Assembly: GCA_013306675.1 (NCBI GenBank)
Contig: JABLUY010000134.1
Coordinates: 1-28,089 of the forward strand
Length of the DNA: 28,089 nt
Direction: 5' to 3'
Origin: Thraustochytrium sp. TN22
Lineage: Eukaryota > Sar > Bigyra > Thraustochytrida > Thraustochytriidae
Shown here piece by piece: positions 4,897 to 28,089 of the stretch (positions are counted from its first letter, which is position 1; every line of letters starts with the position of its first letter). Both the position numbers and the translations under genes were made by a program. Below the pieces are notes generated by a model that saw nothing but the letters and a program-made list of their open reading frames with translations, was not told the origin of the DNA and did not search any database.

Positions 4897-7236
4897 ATGG
4901 CGCCCGCGAGGCGGCTCACGGCCGTCCTGGTGGCAGCGCTGGCGGCCGCCGCGGCGCGCGAGTCCGTGGCACAGGGCAGCTTTTTCGATGCGCCGACGCC
5001 GTACCCGACGCTAGCGCCGCCCACGGCGAGCAATACGGAGGCGCCTACCGAGGCGAGCCCGACGTCTGAGCCTACGACCAAGAGTCCGACGGCGTTTCCG
5101 TCGGCCTCGCCCACGACGCGCTCGCCGACGACGGCGTCGCCCACCACAGCGCCTCCCACGCTGTCTCCGACGACTGCTCCTCCCACGCTGTCTCCGACAA
5201 CGGCACCTCCCACGCCATCTCCTACCCCGCCCACACCTTCACCAACTTTCCCAACGCCATCGCCAACTTTGCCAACTCCATCGCCAACCTTGCCGACGCC
5301 ATCGCCAACCTTGCCTACGCCATCACCGACCCCGCCTACACCAGCGCCAACCCCGCCTACACCAGCGCCAACCCCGCCTACACCAGCGCCAACCCCGCCT
5401 ACACCAGCGCCAACACCGCCTACATCAGCGCCAACGTCGCCTACACCAGCGCCAACCCCGCCAACACCAGCGCCAACCCCGCCTACACCAGCACCGACCT
5501 CGCCAACATCCTCGCCGACCTCGCCTACACCATCGCCGACCCCGCCCACCACAGCGCCAACCGCGCCTACATTAGCGCCTACGTCAAGGGCGGCGCCGAC
5601 GCAGAGGCCGACGACGGTCGAGCCGACGAACCCGACGTCCGGTCCTACGACCTTGGCCCCGAGCACATCAAGCCCAACGACGACGAGCGGACCGACGACA
5701 AGCAAGACTGAGAGCCCAACGGCAGCCGTGGGTGCGGCGACCGGGCTGAACGCGACGGGCGGCTTTTGCGAGGGCGAGTTCGAGCCGTTCCCGGAGCCGT
5801 CGAGCCTTGCGTACGCGACGATCGCTTTTGCTGGCGTGGGCGTCTTCTTCGCGCTGGCGGGCCTGGTGGTGATGGCGCGTTTCTGGGAGCGGCCCATCGT
5901 GCGCATGTCGCAGCGCAATTTCCTGGTGATCATGCTTGTTGGCGTGGCCGTCATGAACGTGGGCGTACTACTTTTGGGCGAGACGGCGCTGGGCCCAAGC
6001 AACGGCAAGTGCATGGCGTCCGTGAGTCTGCTGGAGGTGTCCATGGCCGTGGTGCTCTCGACGCTGGGCGTCAAGGAGTGGCGTGTCCTGCGCGTGCACA
6101 CAGGGTCGCGCCGTGCGCAGCGCGTCAACATCGGCGAAAAGTATCTGGTCGCATCCATAGCCGCGGCGGTCGGCGTACTGGTGGCCGTGCTGGTGGTCTG
6201 GTTCGTGCTGGACCCGCCGCTCGTAGACCCGTGCGACAACTTCACGTGCTCGCGGTCCGCCTTCGTCTATGTGTCGTGGGGCTGGCTCATGCTCCTGGGC
6301 ATTGCCACCATGGTGGTGGCGGTCCGCGCGCGTGACGTGCCGTCGGTTGGCAGCGAGAGCGCCAGCATCTTGTACACCTCTGTGTTCTCCGCGTTTGTGC
6401 TGGTCTTCCTCGGCATGCTGGTTTTCGTCGGCTCGCTCGACCAGGCCATGCAGAACTTCTTCATCGCCTTTGGCTTCATGTGGATCTCCGCCTGCCTGGT
6501 CGTGCTCATCGTCTTCCGCAAGCTCGCCTGGAAGGACCTCTCGGCCGTCGATGTGCGCAGCAAGTTCCTCAGCACGCCGGGCTCCTCGTACGCCGGCTCG
6601 CCCGAGGCCGGCTCGCCCGGCGCCGGTGGCTCAAGCACAAGCGGCTCCAGCCCTGCGGGCCCGCACACCTACCACCACGCGGAGCGTCCGTACTCGCACT
6701 ATTCGTCCAACTACTCGGACTCGCGCAACTCGGCTCATGTGCCGCACGCCAGCACGGAGCCCTCCAGGCCCGTCAAGGTCAAGCGTTCCGGGCCCCTCGA
6801 GCCGCAGCAAGAGGGTGGTCAGATCTCCACGGACGATGTGGACGCCGCGGCGGTGGCGCCGCAGCTCCCGACCACGTCCACCTCGCTGCGCGTCGACGTG
6901 GACGCGCTTCCGCGCCGCGCCGACTCCGCCGGGGTCGTCTCGCCGCCGCCCTCGACGCCCGACGGCTCCGCTTTCAAGCCGACAACCAACTCGGACCAGG
7001 TCCGCACGGTCAACACCCCACCGCAGACCGCGCCTGCCGGCCAGGGCTCCTTTAGCGAGGAGGCCGCCGCCCAGGCTCGCGCTGCTGGCTTTCCCGTCAG
7101 TGAGAGCCTCGGCTGGGAGGAGTTTATCGATCGCGGCAACGGCGAGTCCTTCTGGGTCCACACCTCCACGAACGAGGTCGCACACCAGATGCCCGATGCG
7201 CTCGCACGCCTGCAGGATAGCCTCGTCGAGCAGTGA
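4897..7236 (+). CDS. Class C (GABA-B-like) G-protein-coupled receptor with Pro/Thr-rich stalk and WW-like tail
   Basis: A 779-residue membrane receptor. Residues 1-25 form a signal peptide ending SVA. Residues 30-275 are a Ser/Pro/Thr-rich, probably O-glycosylated stalk, including ten 7-residue TPAPTPP-type repeats. Seven hydrophobic segments follow at about 305-328, 341-363, 372-394, 416-440, 456-480, 491-515 and 520-545. Class C features are IVRMSQRNFLVIMLVG before and in TM2, Cys372 at the top of TM3 with Cys446/Cys451 in the TM4-TM5 loop (the expected disulfide), KEWRVLRV after TM3, and RDVPSVGSESASILYTS between TM5 and TM6. An NFT sequon lies at 448-450. The 234-residue cytoplasmic tail is disordered, rich in Ser/Pro, and ends with a WW-like segment from Trp740 to Pro766 in which the second Trp is His763. 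The Venus-flytrap ligand domain usual for class C receptors is absent. The ligand is unknown. Confidence 0.85.
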   Translation: MAPARRLTAVLVAALAAAAARESVAQGSFFDAPTPYPTLAPPTASNTEAPTEASPTSEPTTKSPTAFPSASPTTRSPTTASPTTAPPTLSPTTAPPTLSPTTAPPTPSPTPPTPSPTFPTPSPTLPTPSPTLPTPSPTLPTPSPTPPTPAPTPPTPAPTPPTPAPTPPTPAPTPPTSAPTSPTPAPTPPTPAPTPPTPAPTSPTSSPTSPTPSPTPPTTAPTAPTLAPTSRAAPTQRPTTVEPTNPTSGPTTLAPSTSSPTTTSGPTTSKTESPTAAVGAATGLNATGGFCEGEFEPFPEPSSLAYATIAFAGVGVFFALAGLVVMARFWERPIVRMSQRNFLVIMLVGVAVMNVGVLLLGETALGPSNGKCMASVSLLEVSMAVVLSTLGVKEWRVLRVHTGSRRAQRVNIGEKYLVASIAAAVGVLVAVLVVWFVLDPPLVDPCDNFTCSRSAFVYVSWGWLMLLGIATMVVAVRARDVPSVGSESASILYTSVFSAFVLVFLGMLVFVGSLDQAMQNFFIAFGFMWISACLVVLIVFRKLAWKDLSAVDVRSKFLSTPGSSYAGSPEAGSPGAGGSSTSGSSPAGPHTYHHAERPYSHYSSNYSDSRNSAHVPHASTEPSRPVKVKRSGPLEPQQEGGQISTDDVDAAAVAPQLPTTSTSLRVDVDALPRRADSAGVVSPPPSTPDGSAFKPTTNSDQVRTVNTPPQTAPAGQGSFSEEAAAQARAAGFPVSESLGWEEFIDRGNGESFWVHTSTNEVAHQMPDALARLQDSLVEQ
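5335..5544 (+). repeat. Ten 21-bp tandem repeats encoding the Pro/Thr stalk
   Basis: Ten in-frame 21-bp units begin at 5335 and recur every 21 bases to 5544. Copies 1-3 and 6 carry the same CCTACACCAGCGCCAACC core; copies 8-10 are the most diverged. Each unit encodes about seven stalk residues, so copy-number change would lengthen or shorten the stalk without breaking the frame. Confidence 0.9.
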
Positions 7237-7423: not shown

Positions 7424-9853
7424 TCAAGCGACATACAATAGCTTGGTCTCGTCGCTGGGGTCAGGTTCCAGGTAGTCGCGCGCGAGCAGGTCATCGACGC
7501 GCTTGCGGATCGTCGCCGGCTGCGCCTGAAAGGTCGACGCCAGCGCCAGAATCACCTTGGCCGAGAGCTCCTCGTACGTGAGCGCCTTGTGCGCCTTCAT
7601 AATGCGCACAATGGCGGCCTCCACGGCGAAGCGCCGCTCCTCCGAGATCTTCGCCAGGCTCGCAGCGCGGTCCTGCTTCGCGTCCTCCGCCTTTTGCGCA
7701 GGCAACTGTGCGATGCGGATGCGCCGCGCCGTGGTGCTAAAATCATCGTTCACCGCGTAGCGCGCCTCGTCCACCTTGCGCAAAATCATATGCCGCCCGT
7801 CCGTCAGCGAGTAGAGCTGCTTGCGCACAAACTCGGCCGAGGCGCCTAGCCGCGCCGCCATCTCCTCGGCGCTCAGCGCCTCCTCCGTGCCCTCGTTGAA
7901 GAGCAACAAGAGTGCGCCCTGGAAGGTTGTTACCACAAGCTGCACCGGCTTGGCGCACCCCGTGAAGCGCCCCGCCAGGGTCAGCGTGCCCAGCGCGTGA
8001 ATCCATGTCAGCGTGCGGTGCGCGGTGCGCGAATCGTAAAAGCTCTTGAACGCCGAGACGGCCGCCTCCATGGGCGCCGGCATGAGCGAAAGCGGCTCGT
8101 ACCGGTACGTCGGCCAGAACCCGGACGTCAGCACCTTGACTCGAAAGTCGAAACCCAGCGCCTCGTACCCAGCGCGATCGTGCCGCTCGAAGTCGCGCTG
8201 CAGATCGGACGCCAGCAGCACATCCTTGATCATGCCGGTGAACTTGGACACGAACGGCTTGCCGCACACCTTTTGCAGCTTCGCGATCACCACCTGCTCC
8301 GCGTCTTTGCTCGCGGACCGGTTCAGGATGAGCCGCTTGGCGAGGTGCTTGCGATAAAACCCCGCGAAGATGTCCTTGTCGTTCACGTACCCGAAGAGCT
8401 CCACCGTGGCCGCCAGCTCGATCTCCAGGCTCGTCTCCGTGCGCGGCGACAGGAGCGACCCAGCGCCGCCAGGAGCCGGCGATACGGGTGCCATGTCTTC
8501 TGGAGCCTTGCGCAGCTTGCGATCCAGGTAGTCTGAGAGGAGCTCCGAAATGGTGATCTCCTCGACGCGCCGCCGACGCCGCACGCGTTTGCGCGCCTTG
8601 CTGTCGCCCTCGCCTTCGTCCAACGGCTGCTCTTGCTGCGTCTCGTCCTCGTCCGGCTCTGCGGGCAATGGAAGATTGACGAAGAACTCAAACGCCTCCT
8701 TGAGCGCGCGGTGAAAGGTGCTGTGGCCCGCGAAACGGTTCTTGACCAGCGCCAGGTACTTGAGGTGCAGGCGCACAAGGCGCGTGATGAGGGTCTGGTC
8801 CAAGCGGTTCTCCCACTGGTTCTTGTAGTTCGGATCGGCCAGCGCGTTGGCGCCCACCTCCTGCAGGAACTTGCGCATGATGAGGGCCATCGGGGCGAGC
8901 CCAGACGGGACGCGCTTGAGGAGCTGGAACATGGTCTGCAGCACCTCGTCCTGATCGTTCTCCAGGAGCCAGCGGCAGCCAGACCCAGGCTTCTCCAGGA
9001 GATCGTGCATGTGAACACTAATGAGCTCGTGCTCACAGGCGCGCAGCAGCTTGTCGCGCGTCTCCTCGTGCAAATAGTGGCCCACACGCTGGTTCTCCAG
9101 CTCCAGCTGCGCCTTGGCCTTGCTCAGGTATTCGGGGCACGTCGTGGACGCCATCCACGCCGCAGACACGCGTGTCATGTACTGCACCGACGCGCGCACC
9201 AATGGCTCCTCCAGCTCGCGCTCGTAGTCGTCCAGCGACCCTTGGCCCAGCGCCAGGTAGATGTCGCGCACGCGCCGAAGCCGCTCCACGCGCTCCGGCC
9301 CGATGCCGCCGCGCTCGCGTCTGTCGTGGTCCACCTCGCGCAAAAACGCGCGCGTCGTGCGCGCCTTGATGGTCTCAAACGCAAAGTCGTGAAACGCCTG
9401 GATCGCCGCGCCCTCCAGCGAAGGCAGCGCAAGGCGCTTCACGTAAAAGCGGTCCAGGTACCCCAGCACCGCGCGCAGCGTGCGAATCAGCACCTGGTGG
9501 CGCCCCCACTCCTCGATGAAGGCGTCCAGAAGCACCTCGTCGCTCGCCGCCTCCAGCCGCTTCGCCACGCGCTGCTCGCAGACCTCGCGCAGCTCGTCCA
9601 GCACCGCGTAGTACAGCTTGCCCGACCAGTTGTGCGGCGTCGCCTGCGTGCACATTGCATACACCAGGCTGTACAGCTCGTGCACCTCGCCCGCCTGCAG
9701 CGCGCGCCCCGGCCCGCCATCGCGGCCCGCTTGCACGTCCACGCCGTGCTCCAGCCTGCGCAGACACACGTCCAGTCCGCGGTACTTGAGCGTGCGCCAG
9801 CCTTCTGCGAAGGCCACCGGCCCCGCTGCCGCGTCCCCCTCGCGCTGCGCCAT
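7424..9853 (-). CDS. CUL1: Cullin (CUL1-like) scaffold of a RING ubiquitin ligase
   Basis: An 809-residue cullin, close to the ~775 of CUL1, that should bridge a substrate-receptor/SKP1-type adaptor at its N-terminal helical repeats and an RBX RING protein at its C-terminal homology domain. Family signatures include YSLVYAMCTQATPHNW near residue 62, KDIFAGFYRKHLAKRLILNR and SASKDAEQVVIAKLQKVCG (cullin homology core). The C-terminal winged-helix segment IVRIMKAHKALTYEEL has Lys753 at the NEDD8-acceptor position, and the protein ends in the typical LLYVA. The SAS-DAE stretch favours the CUL1 subgroup. A charged insert at about residues 396-428, acidic and then seven or more Arg/Lys, resembles a nuclear-localisation signal and is unusual for CUL1. 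The ATG at 9853 is the first in frame. The gene converges with the GPCR, with 187 bp between the stop codons. Confidence 0.93.
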   Translation of the reverse strand: MAQREGDAAAGPVAFAEGWRTLKYRGLDVCLRRLEHGVDVQAGRDGGPGRALQAGEVHELYSLVYAMCTQATPHNWSGKLYYAVLDELREVCEQRVAKRLEAASDEVLLDAFIEEWGRHQVLIRTLRAVLGYLDRFYVKRLALPSLEGAAIQAFHDFAFETIKARTTRAFLREVDHDRRERGGIGPERVERLRRVRDIYLALGQGSLDDYERELEEPLVRASVQYMTRVSAAWMASTTCPEYLSKAKAQLELENQRVGHYLHEETRDKLLRACEHELISVHMHDLLEKPGSGCRWLLENDQDEVLQTMFQLLKRVPSGLAPMALIMRKFLQEVGANALADPNYKNQWENRLDQTLITRLVRLHLKYLALVKNRFAGHSTFHRALKEAFEFFVNLPLPAEPDEDETQQEQPLDEGEGDSKARKRVRRRRRVEEITISELLSDYLDRKLRKAPEDMAPVSPAPGGAGSLLSPRTETSLEIELAATVELFGYVNDKDIFAGFYRKHLAKRLILNRSASKDAEQVVIAKLQKVCGKPFVSKFTGMIKDVLLASDLQRDFERHDRAGYEALGFDFRVKVLTSGFWPTYRYEPLSLMPAPMEAAVSAFKSFYDSRTAHRTLTWIHALGTLTLAGRFTGCAKPVQLVVTTFQGALLLLFNEGTEEALSAEEMAARLGASAEFVRKQLYSLTDGRHMILRKVDEARYAVNDDFSTTARRIRIAQLPAQKAEDAKQDRAASLAKISEERRFAVEAAIVRIMKAHKALTYEELSAKVILALASTFQAQPATIRKRVDDLLARDYLEPDPSDETKLLYVA

Positions 9854-22065: not shown

Positions 22066-23430
22066 TCAAAGCCGTGCATAGTGCTTGGCAGATGAAGCGG
22101 CAGCAGGCGTGCCGACGCTGCGCAGAGAGGGGTCCTCCTTTTGGGCCAGGAGATCCCGAGCAGCCTCTTCCGCACAGTGATGCACGCGGCGAGCAAACTC
22201 ATGATACAGAGAGTCCGCCGGCTTGGCGAGCCATGCTGGCGGCATGAGCACGTCGTGAAAGAGGTGCGCGTTGCGATCCTTGGCAAGGTGCTTGTCGTAG
22301 AGGCGGTCGTAGTACATGAGGAGCGTGCGCGCTACAGACTCGTAGTCGCGCGCGTCGAGCGCATCGAGCGTGGCTCGGAGGCGGTCGTCGCCCAACCGCT
22401 TGCGCACGCGGGTGGCGCACTCGCTCATGGCCGTACGCCAGGCGTCCCATGCCGCCGGGTCGCGGTCCTCATCGACGACGCAGTAGGCCTCGATCAAGTT
22501 GCGCACGCGCTGCTCCATGGGCACGTCGACGCGCAAGACGAGGTTTGACTCGCGCATGGCGCGGTACAGCGTGGGCGGGACCTGGCAGTCGCCCACGTTG
22601 GGCCCCTCGTCCTCGACGTAGACGGGGCGCGCGAGATCGAGGCCGCGCCAGTGCTCGTACAGCAAGTTTGCGTAGTGCTCCGAGGACGGCTGCGGCGCCT
22701 CTTCGCCGATGCGGCCGAACGCGCTGCCCTTGTGATGCGCGAGGCCCTCGAGGTCGAGCACCTGCGCCCCGCAGGCGTCGCGCAGCGCGTGAAGGAGCTT
22801 GGTCTTGCCGCTGCCCGTGCGACCGCCAACGATGCGCACCTGCGCCTCGGCGGCGCCCTCAAAGGCGGCCATGACGAGGCCTCGGTACGCCTTGTAGCCG
22901 CCCTCGCAGAGCAGCACGGTGCCCGTGGGCAAGGCGAGCTCCTCGCGCAGGAACCAGGAGGTGAGCTGCGACCGCAGGCCGCCACGCGCGCAGTACACAG
23001 CGACGCGGTCGGCGCCGGTCTCGGCCAGCAGCCTGCGCGCCTGGTCCGCCATGGCCGGGACCTGCGGCTCAACGAGCGCAAAGCCCAGCTCGATGGCGGC
23101 CTCGCGGCCGGCCTTCTTGTAGCACGTGCCGACGGCGGCGCGCTCCGCGTCGCCCAGCAGCGACAGGTTGCGCGCGCCGGGCACGTGTCCCTTGGCGAAC
23201 TCGCAGGGCGCCCTCGCGTCCAGCAGCAGCACCCGCTCGCCGCGCGCGGCGTCCTCGAAGCGCGCCGAGGCCACGCCCTGCACGCGGCCGCCCGCGGCCT
23301 CGGCGCGCGCCAGCTCCAGCCGCAGCCGCGCCGCGCTCGACGGCGACGAGCCCAGCCCGCGCCGCGCCACCCGCGCCGCCGCCCCCGCCGCCGCCCCCGC
23401 CCTCGCCGCCGCCGCCGCCGCGCGCCGCAT
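22066..23430 (-). CDS. selU (mnmH): tRNA 2-selenouridine synthase SelU/MnmH with mitochondrial-type presequence
   Basis: A 454-residue two-domain enzyme. In bacteria SelU converts 2-thiouridine at tRNA wobble position 34 to 2-selenouridine through a geranylated intermediate, using selenophosphate. The rhodanese domain (about 50-190) has LLLDARAPCEFAKGHVPGA and the catalytic loop YCARGGLRS with Cys147. The P-loop domain (from about 198) has GRTGSGKT (203-210), DLEGLAHHKGSAFG (216-229, a SelU hallmark), VYVEDEGPNVGDCQVP (251-266) and a helical C-terminus containing LMYYDRLYDKH. Bacterial MnmH is ~360 residues. The extra length is mainly an N-terminal Ala/Arg-rich leader (MRRAAAAAARAGAAAGAA..., 1-30), a mitochondrial-type presequence. 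The ATG at 23430 was chosen for this leader; the open frame further upstream runs antisense through the neighbouring GTPase. SelU is a bacterial/archaeal family, so its presence here suggests transfer. Confidence 0.9.
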   Translation of the reverse strand: MRRAAAAAARAGAAAGAAARVARRGLGSSPSSAARLRLELARAEAAGGRVQGVASARFEDAARGERVLLLDARAPCEFAKGHVPGARNLSLLGDAERAAVGTCYKKAGREAAIELGFALVEPQVPAMADQARRLLAETGADRVAVYCARGGLRSQLTSWFLREELALPTGTVLLCEGGYKAYRGLVMAAFEGAAEAQVRIVGGRTGSGKTKLLHALRDACGAQVLDLEGLAHHKGSAFGRIGEEAPQPSSEHYANLLYEHWRGLDLARPVYVEDEGPNVGDCQVPPTLYRAMRESNLVLRVDVPMEQRVRNLIEAYCVVDEDRDPAAWDAWRTAMSECATRVRKRLGDDRLRATLDALDARDYESVARTLLMYYDRLYDKHLAKDRNAHLFHDVLMPPAWLAKPADSLYHEFARRVHHCAEEAARDLLAQKEDPSLRSVGTPAAASSAKHYARL

Positions 23431-23623
23431 CGCTCCCGCGCAGGCCGGCAGGCGCGCTGGAACGGGTTCTGCCGGTCCTGGCGCGCCAGGTCCGAGTCCA
23501 GGTCCAGGTCCGGGTCCGGGTCCGGGTCCGGGTCCGAGTCCGAGTCGAGTTGGTGGTGGTGGCGGCGCAGCGCGTGCGCATGGGCAGCGGAGACCGCGAA
23601 CGGGGCGCGGCGGCGGCGGCAGC
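23431..23623. promoter_or_regulatory. 193-bp bidirectional promoter region between SelU and YchF genes
   Basis: The gap between the divergent ATGs is filled in its left-centre by hexamer repeats of the GGTCCG/GGTCCA type (23488-23549), followed by GGTGGT and CGG repeats up to the YchF ATG. Both promoters should lie here. No TATA box is seen. Confidence 0.55.
23488..23549. repeat. GGTCCG hexamer repeat in a bidirectional promoter
   Basis: About ten hexamers reading GGTCCA, GGTCCG, then GAGTCC variants lie midway between the SelU and YchF starts. Confidence 0.85.
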
Positions 23624-24739
23624 ATGGCGCTGCGGCTGGGCCTGCTGGGCCTGGCGAACGTGGGCAAGTCCACGACGTTCAACGCCATCGCCAGGACGCA
23701 GCTCGCGCGCGCCAGCAACTTCCCGTTCACGACCATCGACGCGCAGACGGCCATCGTGGAGGTGCCCGATGGGAGGCTGCACAAGCTCGCGCAGCTCGCC
23801 GCGTCCAAGAAGGTCGTGCCGCTCACCATGGAGATGACGGACGTCGCGGGACTCGTGGCCGGGGCCAGCAAGGGCGAGGGGAGGGGAGCAGCCTTCCTCG
23901 CGGACCTGCGCTCGTGCGCCGCGCTCATCCACGTGGTGCGCTGCTTCGAGAACGAGAACATTTTGCACGTGTCGTCGGAGGCCGGCCGCCTCGACCCGCT
24001 CGATGACCTTGAGGTCATCGAGACCGAGCTCCTGCTCTCCGACCTGACCAGCGTAGAGAAGCGTCTGCAGCGCGCCAAGAAGCTCGCGCCCGCCGACCGA
24101 CAGCTGCTCGAGGCAGTGCACGACGTGCTCGCCGAGGGCAACTCGCCGCGCGAACTCCTGCTGCAGGCCGCCGAAAAGGAAGCCGCCAACGAGAAGTTCG
24201 GCCTGCGCCAGGAGCTCATGCAGAACCTGCTCTCCTCCAAGCCCGTGCTCGCCGTGCTCAACGTCGACGAGGACACGCTGCGCGCTGGTCGCAACGAGCA
24301 CACCGACAAGGTCTGCGAGGTCTTCAAGCAACGCGGCGACGTCCAGCCCATTCTCATTTGCGCCGCCCTCGAGGAGGAGGTTCTCGGGCTCTCCCCTGAG
24401 GAGCGCGACGAGTACCTGGCGGACTCCGGCGTCGAGCGCGCCTGCATCGACCAGGTCGTGGAGACCGCTGCGAAGCTCCTCAACACGCACTGCTTCTACA
24501 CTGTCGGCCCGCAGGAGGCGCGCGCTTGGCGCATCCCGCTCGGCGCCACCGCCAAGCTCGCCGCGGGCCGCATCCATTCCGACATCTCCGACGGCTTCAT
24601 CAAGGCCGAGGTCATCGCCTACGACGACTTTGTCACGTGCGGTTCCGAGGCCGCCGCCCGCGAGGCCGGCAAACTCCGCGTTGAGGGCCGCGATTACGAG
24701 GTCCACGACGGCGATGTCATCCATTTCCACCATCACTGA
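23624..24739 (+). CDS. ychF: YchF/OLA1-family GTPase/ATPase, bacterial-type G4 motif
   Basis: A 371-residue Obg-superfamily P-loop NTPase, close to the 363 of E. coli YchF. These proteins bind ribosomes and hydrolyse ATP or GTP, with roles in translation and stress. G1 is GLANVGKST (9-17; Ala replaces the usual Pro), switch I FPFTTID (33-39), G3 DVAGLV (73-78) with a hydrophobic residue in place of a catalytic Gln, and G4 NVDE (213-216). A helical hairpin is at about 120-190. The C-terminal TGS domain contains YTVGPQEARAWRIPLG, GRIHSDISDGFIKAEVIAY and GKLRVEGRDYEVHDGDVIHF. The G4 NVDE matches bacterial-type YchF rather than the NMSE/NLSE of eukaryotic cytosolic OLA1, so an organellar or transferred origin is likely. 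No presequence is visible from the ATG at 23624, and the open frame upstream has no nearby Met. Head-to-head with SelU. Confidence 0.93.
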   Translation: MALRLGLLGLANVGKSTTFNAIARTQLARASNFPFTTIDAQTAIVEVPDGRLHKLAQLAASKKVVPLTMEMTDVAGLVAGASKGEGRGAAFLADLRSCAALIHVVRCFENENILHVSSEAGRLDPLDDLEVIETELLLSDLTSVEKRLQRAKKLAPADRQLLEAVHDVLAEGNSPRELLLQAAEKEAANEKFGLRQELMQNLLSSKPVLAVLNVDEDTLRAGRNEHTDKVCEVFKQRGDVQPILICAALEEEVLGLSPEERDEYLADSGVERACIDQVVETAAKLLNTHCFYTVGPQEARAWRIPLGATAKLAAGRIHSDISDGFIKAEVIAYDDFVTCGSEAAAREAGKLRVEGRDYEVHDGDVIHFHHH

Positions 24740-25111: not shown

Positions 25112-28089
25112 TTACGAAGGAACGGTCTCGGTGAGGACCTTGCGAATACGTCCTGCGAGACGCTCGATCTCGGCGTCCGAAGGAGGGCTCGAGAAAACGC
25201 GCGAGTAGAGCGGGTTGCCACCCCAAGCAAAGCCGAAGAGGCCCTCCCACGCGCTCGTGTCGGCCATGTCCGCCTCGAGCACACACGGAATCATGCGCGC
25301 CTGCTTGTGGCGCTGGCGAATGTAGGCGAACTCGTCGCGGCAGTTGTCGTCCTCGTCTCGCGGACGGTTCACCTTGGTCATGTACTCGCGCGTCACGAAG
25401 ACCACACTCGCCTTGGATCGATCGATGCCCTGTGCCATGGCCGCCATCACATCGCCCTGGACCTCGCTCTCATCGAGCCAACAACGGATACCGTGCGCAG
25501 AGGAGAGACGCTGCGCGATCTGCACCACGAGGCGGTGCGTCGCCAAAGCAGGACCCCAGGCGTGCGACAAGAAGACGTCGAAGGATTTGGAAGCGGCGTT
25601 GCTCAGCTGCGCCGCATCCGCCACGACGCCGCCAAAGGCCGCCAGAGGAAGCGACGTCCTGGCCCGTGACTGCACCATGCCGTCTGGGGCCACCCGCATC
25701 AGATCGCTCACGAGGGCGCATGACTTGGCGTCCGTGGTCCCGTCCGAGCTCACGTAGAGCTTCGGGCGCAGCGCGCCCTTCATGAAGGACTCGTCGATCT
25801 CGTCCAGCTGGCCCTGGAGCAGCGCGATGCGGTCTGTGAGGCCTTGCGCCGCGGTTGGCTCGAAGCGCATCAGCACGCGACGCCAGTGACCGTCGATGGC
25901 GTCAAGCATGAGGATAGCCTTGACGCCATGAAAGACCATTTGCACCAGGTCCGAGGTGACCTTGGAGACGTAGGCCTTATGGCCGAAGGTCTGCACAAGC
26001 CTCGCCACGAAACGCTGAAAGACGCCCTTGGGTAGGATGCCAAAGTCGATGTAGGCCAGCGGGCTGTCCTCCGGGAGGTCGGCGAGCGAAGCGGCTCGTG
26101 CATCCTCGCTCGCGGGCGAAAGCAGACTTGGAATCAACAGAGCGCCCTCCGCGTCGATGACCTTGTCGGTCCGGTCGTCCTCCACGCCGATCCAAGGGCT
26201 CGGGCACGCCAGCAGCATCTCCTGCATGATGTCCATGAAGTAGCCCACGGGCTCGCCGCGCCAGAGCCAGGCGAGCAGCGCACGACTTGCCACGCCACGC
26301 TTCTCCCAGTCCACCAGGGCGGGCCGCAGATCAAAAGGGAGACTTGCGCTGTGCATCAGCTTGTTACGATGCGCTCTCATGTGCATGGGGGCACAGATGA
26401 CGCGGGACAGGTTGTTCAGGAGCCACTGCGGGCGGATCACCACAATGCTGCGCAGAGCCTCTGTGTTGGTCAGGTGCACCAGGACGCCGAGCTCGTGCAT
26501 GTAGGCGAGCATCGTCGTGACCTCGTCCTCAAGGAGACCGCAAACGTTACTTCCCAGGGCCTGGATCTCCTCCAGCGGCATGTACGTCTTGTCGCCCTGC
26601 AGCAGCTTGTCGAGACAGAGGGACCAGCGCAGCGGCACGGGCTCGTTCGTGAAGGGACGTCCCGCGACGGCACTCTTGAGCGCCCCTCGCAGGGCCTTCA
26701 CACGCCATTTGGCCTCGCGCTCGGTCGCTTCGATCGCGGCCCGTTGCGCATTGGCCCCCCAAATGTACCCGAAGAAGCCGGGGCAAGGCCTCGGCAGGCG
26801 ACGTCCAACGTTGTTGAGGGGGAAGAACGAGAGCTCCTCCAAACTGTTGAGCACGAAGCACAGATCGCCCGCCAGCTCGTCGAGCACACTTGTCCCCAGC
26901 ACCATGTCAATCTCCGCATGCTGCTTCGCGTCCGAGACCTGATCCAGGTAGGTGCCCACGAGCGCAACGTCGACGCCTGGAGCGTGCAGCCGGATCGAGT
27001 CCAGCCAGAATCGGAGCGTCCCGAGCGCCGCCTCGCGCGTCGCGAGCTTTTCATACGCGTCCGAGTCGAGTTGGTCCCGAAAGATCTCCTTGCCAAGCAC
27101 CTCGCGCATGTCAAAGACGAGCACGTAGATGCCGTACTGCGTCAGGAAGAGGTGGTGGAGTGCGTAAAAGACTTCCTGGCCGCCGTAGTCCCAGATGGTG
27201 AAGCTCACCTCCTCGTTCACCTTGTGGCCCTGCGTCTGCACATGCGCCCGCATCACGGGGTTGTAGGCCCGGGCCACGTCACTCTCCTCCACGACTACGG
27301 CAGGAGCCGCGGGTCGAGGCGCGGGCGGTGGATTTGGGGAAGCAGGCAGTGGGGCGCGGGTAGTCGCGCTTCTAGGCCCGTAGCATTTCTTGGTGAGCTG
27401 CTCACTCAGAGTCGCGAGGTCCAGGCCGCGTTGCGCCACCCAGTCTCGTGTCCGCGTCAACGTGAGCTCGACGCCGATTGTCGAGTCGTGCTCGAGGACC
27501 ACGTCTTGGTCCAGCAGCGTGCGGATCGTCGATGTTTTGCCCGAGCCGGCCTGACCGATCACCATGGCCTTGACGCGGCCCCAGCGAACCCTTTCGCCGC
27601 TTCGCAGAGCCTGAACAGCACCCATGCCAAAAGCGGTGACTTCCTCGTTGGCGATGTTGAGGCGGGCTTCAATCCGCGCCGTAATTGTTTCTGGAACCTC
27701 GCCGAGAGTAAGGTTTTGAAGACAGCAACTTGGATTAGCCTCCAGCGCGTGCGCCAGCGCTTCAGCGCCCGCGGAGCCGATGTCGTTGTCCTCAAGGCTG
27801 CGATTTGGCAAAGCAAGATGTCAGCTTGACATAATCCTCCAACCCAGGTCAAGGCGGGCCAGGCCTCGCCTGTCTGCACGTGTCGTGCAAGGGCCCGGTG
27901 GCTGGATGCTACAAAGCAGGCCTGCCGTGCCGGACGAGCAGGCCGCGCCCATGCGTAACCATCTCATAAGATGGACAGCTGGCCCGTGCTTTCAGAGGCT
28001 GCCGGACGGGAGTAGGAAACGAGGAACTCACAAAAGCGTCGTCAGCGTGCACTGGCCGCTCTCCAGAGCTCGCGCCAGCGCTTCAGCGC
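25112..28089 (-). CDS. LRR-Roc-COR-TIR protein (Roco family), 5' end beyond the window; exons 28089-28032 and 27797-25112
   Basis: At least 913 residues. Leucine-rich repeats of the ribonuclease-inhibitor type (AEALARALESGQCTLTTLF across the intron, then LEDNDIGSAGAEALAHAL) lead into a Roc GTPase domain. It has P-loop GQAGSGKTS (about 27530-27556), STIGVELTL in switch I, DYGGQE (27173-27190) in switch II and GTYLD in the G4 position, with a Pro-rich insert (about 27290-27370). A COR region follows (about 26860-25800), including PKGVFQRFVARLVQTFG. The C-terminus is a TIR-type domain (about 25590-25140): FDVFLSHAWG, CWLDESEVQGDVMAAMAQGIDRSKASVVFVTREY, then a conserved DNCRDEFAYIRQRHK segment. 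Roc-COR acts as a dimerising GTP switch. TIR domains either self-assemble or hydrolyse NAD+. An immune or stress sensor role is inferred. The open frame within exon 2 begins only with TTG, so the true start lies outside. Confidence 0.88.
27798..28031 (-). other. 234-bp GT-AG intron splitting a leucine-rich repeat of the Roco gene
   Basis: On the minus strand the donor is TTTT|GTGAGT (intron starts at 28031) and the acceptor follows a T-rich TTGCTTTG tract, ending AATCGCAG at 27798. Joining exon 1 to exon 2 completes a Phe codon (TT|C) and gives one continuous, well-formed leucine-rich repeat, which is strong support for this splice. Without splicing the upstream frame hits a TGA within the donor. 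Confidence 0.85.

Follow-up and report, generated by a model that had tools for sequence, protein, structure and literature searches.

A gene with an LRR-Roc-COR-TIR layout

The window analyzed here is a 28,089-nucleotide stretch of DNA from Thraustochytrium sp. TN22, positions 1-28089 of a contig of 100,445 bases (JABLUY010000134.1, or C38) in a genome assembly of 37.9 Mb and 453 contigs. At its end, on the minus strand at 25112-28089, lies part of a gene for a putative receptor that combines leucine-rich repeats (LRR) with a Roc GTPase, a COR region, and a TIR domain. A preliminary description had proposed this layout for a single gene and likened it to NLR receptors. The layout is borne out, as an open reading frame (ORF) of 899 amino acids, 25112-27811 (-), carries Roc, COR-A, and TIR_2 matches, each above its Pfam cut-off; the NLR-like analogy is supported as well. 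The description missed the large family to which the gene belongs and the hypervariable, one-exon LRR cassettes of that family.

The Roc GTPase domain occupies approximately 26882..27574 (-), with a Pfam score of 54.9 bits (cut-off 27; E 1.3e-14) and support from LRRK2, C. tepidum, and Methanosarcina Roco entries in PDB. Its P-loop, GQAGSGKT (residues 86-93, codons 27533-27556), and its switch II motif, WDYGGQ (residues 207-212, codons 27176-27193), are both intact. The COR-A match follows at 26390..26635 (-), scoring 40.4 bits (cut-off 35.3; E 3.4e-10), and the COR region continues downstream towards TIR. A structure model of the ORF shows the Roc-COR fold and, in a fold search, fits LRRK2 and prokaryotic Roco structures. 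Judged by its sequence, the protein is a member of the Roco proteins, with Roc followed by COR and with the P-loop and switch II (DxxG) preserved. Neither NB-ARC nor NACHT is among its Pfam matches at E<=1.

The TIR domain runs from residue 744 to the C-terminus, 25115..25582 (-). The C-terminal part had been named beforehand as the place where profiles should detect TIR, and there TIR_2 does match, at residues 746-848 with 52.4 bits (cut-off 28; E 9e-14), in one open frame with Roc and COR and with the motif FDVFLSH at 744-750. A second Pfam model, PF01582 TIR, stays under its cut-off (17.4 vs 21.3), and the PADLOC models ThsB1 (8.4e-05) and bSEFIR (4.3e-05) match weakly. The fold-search lists for the full-length model are occupied by the Roc-COR part.

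The last exon, 25112..27797 (-), fuses the final LRR to Roc-COR-TIR. It is marked by the open frame, an acceptor CGCAG just before 27797, a stop codon TAA, and the Pfam matches. That final LRR (LEDNDIGSAGAEALAHALEANPSCCLQN, 27711..27797, -) fits the cassette exon body described below; it lacks a donor site and continues into Roc, as in sister genes. Next to it is an intron of the LRR-cassette type, 27798..28031 (-), 234 nt long and reading GTGAGT..TCGCAG, whose 5' end occurs 25 times in its own genome with <=3 mismatches. The 3' part of the preceding LRR cassette exon, 58 of 87 nt, lies at 28032..28089 (-), where it is cut by an assembly gap. The LRR content of the window consists of this piece and the last LRR. 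The two splice in frame, giving AEALARALESGQCTLTTLF before the junction and LEDNDIG after it, that is, ..LTTLF joined to LEDNDIG... The gap, a run of N at contig positions 28090-29472, falls inside the LRR array of the gene. Past it are three LRR exons of 87 nt with one LRR each (contig positions 29609-29695, 29927-30013, and 30272-30358) and two 5' exons (30558-30659 and 30866-30954), with a predicted start codon ATG at 30954. Joined, the exons past the gap give MDSDDQMRAIEDEMDHL..LRLAFNKIGSAGAEALARALESGQC.. without a stop. The full exon layout, including these exons, is a predicted gene model.

A family of Roc-COR-TIR genes

Searches of the genome found 46 COR-A matches, 42 of them over cut-off, and 123 TIR_2 matches, 114 over cut-off; these counts are lower bounds. 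A TIR_2 match lies 535-1003 nt downstream on the same strand at 36 of the 46 COR-A matches, and 34 of these 36 pairs share one reading frame, judged by start difference modulo 3. Because the order is repeated so often and so consistently in frame, it is more than a matter of chance. Alignment of 21 members, made up of the 25112-27811 gene and the 20 top-scoring COR-A matches, gave COR-A in 21/21, TIR_2 in 19/21, and Roc in 18/21 at E<=0.01; L022 and L024 have frames that open at the start of a contig. NB-ARC has 2 matches in the genome and NACHT 8 (7 over cut-off), against 46 for COR-A; Roc-COR is therefore the expanded switch in this genome.

Two loci show TIR domains in tandem arrangements. 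C288:21993-35417 (-) holds three tandem COR-TIR pairs, and two of the frames here, L016 and L020, carry a further TIR start motif towards the N-terminus. C160:1247-4627 (+) is a tandem TIR repeat, with four equal-score TIR_2 matches at a 1043-bp period and one TGA inside each.

A candidate catalytic glutamate in the TIR domain

TIR domains were aligned from 25 members out of the 29 for which a frame was available; L018, L019, L028, and L029 were excluded, since no TIR start motif was found in them or the frame was odd. Two classes are present. Class A (FDVFLSH..WLD..NCRDEF) includes the 25112-27811 gene, and class B mostly reads HVFLSH..EL. A profile of the nine class B domains matches SARM1 chains in PDB (first row E 1.3e-9, chain labelled SARM1/tir-1), and in that alignment the Glu of SARM1 'VHKEI' falls on the Glu of the class B 'EL'. 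The class A profile matches TIR and SEFIR chains in PDB weakly, the best at E 0.0042; SARM1 is not listed for it at E<=1, and the alignments shown end before the helix that carries the Glu. The link to SARM1 for class A is therefore made through class B: in an hhalign comparison the two profiles align at E 9.4e-07 (probability 91), and NCRDEF falls over VRREL. As NCRDEF aligns to the class B Glu, which aligns to the SARM1 'HKEI' Glu, E827 (codon 25331..25333, -) is a candidate catalytic Glu. The SARM1 residue is E642, which we take to be catalytic; plant TIRs have the equivalent Glu in WCLxEL. E827 is invariant in all 16 aligned class A domains, as is the corresponding Glu in all nine of class B, and it sits in a helix of the structure model at 763-775 (E767 by model numbering).

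The preliminary description had looked for the catalytic Glu in WLDESEV. That placement is ruled out, because the profile alignments put the SARM1 'HKEI' Glu at E827; WLDESEV is found where the second TIR strand ends and in the loop that follows, and E827 in a later helix.

Cleavage of NAD+ by the TIR domain is the probable output of the receptor family. The domain could instead act as a scaffold or adaptor, with no NADase activity of its own, that signals by recruiting other TIR proteins. In keeping with such a role, the Asp of the WLD motif is missing from seven of the nine class B domains (L017 and L021 keep it), and 87 TIR_2 matches in the genome are unpaired with COR. Retention of the aligned Glu in all 25 aligned domains of both classes argues the other way, and we consider a pure scaffold somewhat unlikely.

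LRR exon cassettes

Every LRR found is encoded by a phase-2 exon with GT..AG introns, one repeat per exon, in tandem exon-intron cassettes. The exon-shuffling-type signature is thus present, with a phase-symmetric exon for each LRR and variable concave residues. The repeats are of the RNI type and 28-29 residues long. In a survey of 52 LRR exons that satisfied motif rules, the exon size was 87 nt in most genes of the 25112-27811 type and 84 nt elsewhere, L033 included; one exon has 90 nt. A search for a 36-nt exon body, with <=3 mismatches allowed, gives 80 occurrences in the genome, at tandem spacings that include 285, 315, and 317 bp; the reversed sequence, used as a control, gives 0. At <=9 mismatches, 90 exon bodies were found in the fetched loci, some of which had been picked from the list of 80 occurrences. 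Seventy-six of the 90 are flanked by AG and GT and contain no stop; in the other 14 the codons that were translated are free of stops, and roughly half of these bodies are last LRRs that continue into Roc.

The core of the cassette intron occurs 37 times in the genome, 34 times on contigs with cassette exons and otherwise at C16:17, C153:9, and C244:200932. Spread of this intron through the genome as an element in its own right is rejected on that distribution.

Cassettes of the same type occur in C149 (L039/L045) and C359 (L042/L046), with no COR-A match in the vicinity. The next open frame after these cassettes encodes a charged segment of 141 residues in C359 and 213 in C149; Pfam gives no match in the C149 segment. 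Downstream of the non-Roco array in C149, L045:2-1864 (-) encodes a WD40-repeat protein (8e-61), possibly STAND-type. The arrays at C11:306577-309336 and C359:8492-11245 are almost alike in their series of matches and in their spacings, which reflects either a recent segmental copy or allelic contigs.

Variation is focused on concave-face codons

Thirteen exons from four loci were compared first. Their mean pairwise difference was 0.459 over the 17 nt of concave LRR positions and 0.073 over the remaining exon sites (p 5e-5 when exon sites are permuted), with 0.089 in following and 0.137 in preceding introns. A larger set holds 75 cassettes (one of 76 was dropped for a short flank), 60 of them distinct within arrays, from 13 arrays. 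Among its 165 between-array pairs with introns no more than 10% different, introns differ by 0.068 and other codons by 0.076, as compared with 0.61 for codons 2, 3, and 5 plus the split codon and 0.268 for codons 8, 26, and 27. The ratio of codons 2, 3, and 5 to intron is 8.6 in these pairs (bootstrap over arrays, 5.8-11.0). Residue triplets at these three codons are distinct in 51 of the 60 cassettes, and no whole exon is common to two arrays among the 60 distinct cassettes and 13 arrays.

The same focus appears at closer range. For 60 pairs with introns within 3%, many of them non-independent and six (rows marked 'diff') joining two loci of one C11 array, the differences number 137/660 at variable positions (11 nt), 122/4560 in the other exon positions, and 117/13254 in the intron. 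The sharpest pair between contigs, C379/C321, differs at 9/11 variable positions, 1/76 other exon positions, and 0/228 intron positions; the single difference elsewhere in the exon is a silent change at the third position of the last Leu codon.

Near-identical introns beside divergent codons might arise if assembly or consensus calling had collapsed repeats. The run of N within the array of the 25112-28089 gene speaks for such an artefact, as do the contigs C17, C381, and C210, which end in arrays, and C135 and C148, which end in Roc. We hold this explanation to be very unlikely, given that arrays on many contigs vary at the same LRR positions and that no stop was seen in 90 cassettes.

An ordinary Roco gene, in which LRR exons duplicate and normal diversifying selection acts without any special process, is a further alternative. 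Exons of 84 nt with one LRR each are present in other genes of the family, and brown-algal ROCO genes show positive selection on concave sites (PMC11378527, from the part of the text available). The C379/C321 counts are hard to obtain by selection on point mutations without extensive homogenization, and we find this alternative somewhat doubtful.

Origin of the variation

Where intron p<=0.10 (189 pairs), the introns differ by 0.065, and the 21 conserved codons by 0.108 at silent sites (pS) and 0.058 at replacement sites (pN); introns are therefore a fair yardstick. The variable codons show pN 0.59 together with pS 0.46, against the pS of 0.108 elsewhere. With so high an apparent silent divergence, selection on new point mutations alone is no explanation. 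Silent third bases of Leu codons differ by 0.66 in the last Leu, 0.43 in the first Leu, and 0.16 in each of three internal Leu codons, with a bootstrap interval of 0.29-0.44 for the difference between flanking and internal codons. For the last Leu, the third base shows an association with the two variable bases that follow (p 0.0002); for the internal and first Leu codons there is no such association. Among the eight arrays whose introns are most alike, the value is just 0.18 for the first-Leu site and 0.62 for the last-Leu site. Silent diversity beside the variable codons means that the variable blocks seem to be older than their surroundings or to have a separate history.

The receptors could serve recognition of self and non-self, prey, or mates rather than defense, with balancing selection maintaining the LRR diversity, much as in the STAND proteins of fungal allorecognition. 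Deep divergence at binding codons within homogenized surroundings fits balancing selection, and so does the greater silent variability of flanking than of internal Leu codons. The low first-Leu value in the eight most similar arrays does not fit, and sequence cannot separate defense from recognition, as a TIR output would suit both. We regard a role in recognition instead of defense as unlikely.

Diversifying or balancing selection, combined with frequent conversion of the surroundings, is favored over targeted replacement as the source of the pattern, although either would account for it. Under the latter, a dedicated germline process would keep cassettes uniform across loci by conversion or recombination and would replace short ligand-facing blocks, adjacent silent base included, to supply an anticipatory repertoire coupled to the Roco switch and the TIR enzyme; this is a quite improbable scheme. 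Variation targeted to adenines is the mark of bacterial diversity-generating elements. It is unsupported by base counts here, as codon 2 varies at all three positions and with all four bases.

Neighboring genes

Elsewhere in the window, 7424-9853 (-) encodes a cullin with its neddylation domain (Pfam Cullin 1.2e-132, Cullin_Nedd8 3.4e-18) and 4897-7236 (+) a class C GPCR-like seven-transmembrane protein (7tm_3 2.4e-30). A frame at 22066-24486 (-) matches rhodanese (1.5e-09), has a P-loop match below threshold, and may contain introns.

A proposed receptor family

We propose, with a probability of roughly two in three, that the gene belongs to an expanded family of intracellular receptors that resemble NLRs and have diversifying LRRs, a Roco switch, and TIR output. 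Ligands, whether pathogen, prey, or non-self molecules, would bind the variable face of the LRRs and alter the GTP-dependent state of the Roc-COR dimer. That change would bring TIR domains together so that NAD+ is hydrolyzed or cyclized, leading to cell death or an alarm. The repertoire would change as phase-symmetric cassettes are duplicated in tandem, lost, and recombined. In each repeat 4-5 codons would be under strong diversifying selection while the remainder is homogenized, and skipping of symmetric exons could supply further splice variants. Extreme variability at likely binding residues amid near-identical DNA suggests a fast-changing recognition repertoire.

Several points weigh against this proposal. 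We infer both the ligand and the immune role. Ten of the 46 COR-A matches have no TIR_2 match downstream. GTPase motifs are altered in some sister proteins: both motifs in L019, switch II in L029, the P-loop in L028 (which contains a run of N), and WDYAGQ in place of WDYGGQ in L011, L016, and L020. The contrast between codons and introns is weaker when every pair with >=80 comparable intron bases is counted, 1359 out of 1770 (intron 0.297, variable 0.602, codons 8, 26, and 27 0.337, other 0.142), similar introns having been the selection criterion for the 165 pairs compared above. The silent divergence of the variable codons is on this side as well. Recent tandem copies within an array, in C86 and C11, are often identical at the variable codons too, and the variation is therefore not made at every duplication. 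Finally, copy number and order are unsafe because the arrays are repeats in a gapped assembly.

The proposed family would unite a Roco GTPase as an NLR-like switch, a TIR output in a eukaryotic microbe, and hypervariable LRR exon cassettes. The contrast between introns and binding codons lets one ask whether selection and gene conversion are enough or whether a targeted mechanism is needed.

Comparison with known systems

Plant TNL and animal NLR receptors share the logic of effector, NTPase switch, and LRR, but their switch is NB-ARC or NACHT where here it is Roc-COR. The domain order here is reversed relative to TNLs. The Roco proteins of C. tepidum and Methanosarcina and human LRRK1/2 share the Roc-COR fold and lack TIR; LRRK proteins end in kinase-WD40. 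SARM1, a TIR NADase to which the class B profile and its Glu align, contains no Roco part and is regulated by ARM-SAM.

Searches for a bacterial origin used limited samples, and in these a related-locus search gave no confirmed relative for the 25112-27811 protein, nor did phage and plasmid records give a match. A family alignment search found one LRR-Roc-COR frame in bacteria, with no TIR seen by eye. Of 82 genomes from the phylum of that frame, 12 had a match; among the 33 matches listed from them, seven fall on the TIR part and the others on Roc-COR. No contig carried matches to both parts in the 82 genomes, where scoring in the largest genomes covered only 12 candidates. LHC had no match in the Thraustochytrium genome, nor did integrin-beta, in a search that had no positive control. 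Open-access PMC gave no paper on TIR domains for Thecamonas or for thraustochytrids.

ROC-COR and TIR on one chain are known from Aplysia TIR proteins (PMC9334734) and from TPR-ROCO-TIR in Chondrus (PMC11378527), as here; in the available parts of these papers the genes are few and no hypervariable cassette array is described. A figure legend on ROCO proteins, in which Trichoplax is mentioned, also names TIR as one of the domains (PMC4104024, excerpt). The 2019 Roco review, in the portion available, groups the family without TIR, and the word 'TIR' occurs 0 times in it (PMC6337361). LRR-ROCO is present in Acanthamoeba (PMC4053784), and COR-associated NTPases are mentioned in cyanobacterial and verrucomicrobial systems (PMC7159879), both cited from partial text. 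A search of open-access PMC by title or abstract start found no protist LRR-Roc-COR-TIR cassette family. ROCO-TIR proteins and cassette LRR-ROCO genes are thus each known, and their union in a large family with such focused variation was not found in open-access PMC, as far as the available parts of these sources extend.

The nearest parallel is the LRR-ROCO family of brown algae, including Ectocarpus and Saccharina (PMC11378527). Both are expanded LRR-Roc-COR families with one LRR per phase-symmetric exon. The available part of that paper gives 9 to 47 genes in four species, positive selection at four concave LRR sites, and alternative splicing of the LRR exons. The algal exon has 72 nt and encodes 23 residues, as against 84/87 nt and 28-29 residues here, and the algal genes are mostly simple LRR-ROCO whereas most members here end in TIR. 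If the likeness between the two is convergent, receptor diversification through single-repeat exons recurs outside animals and plants.
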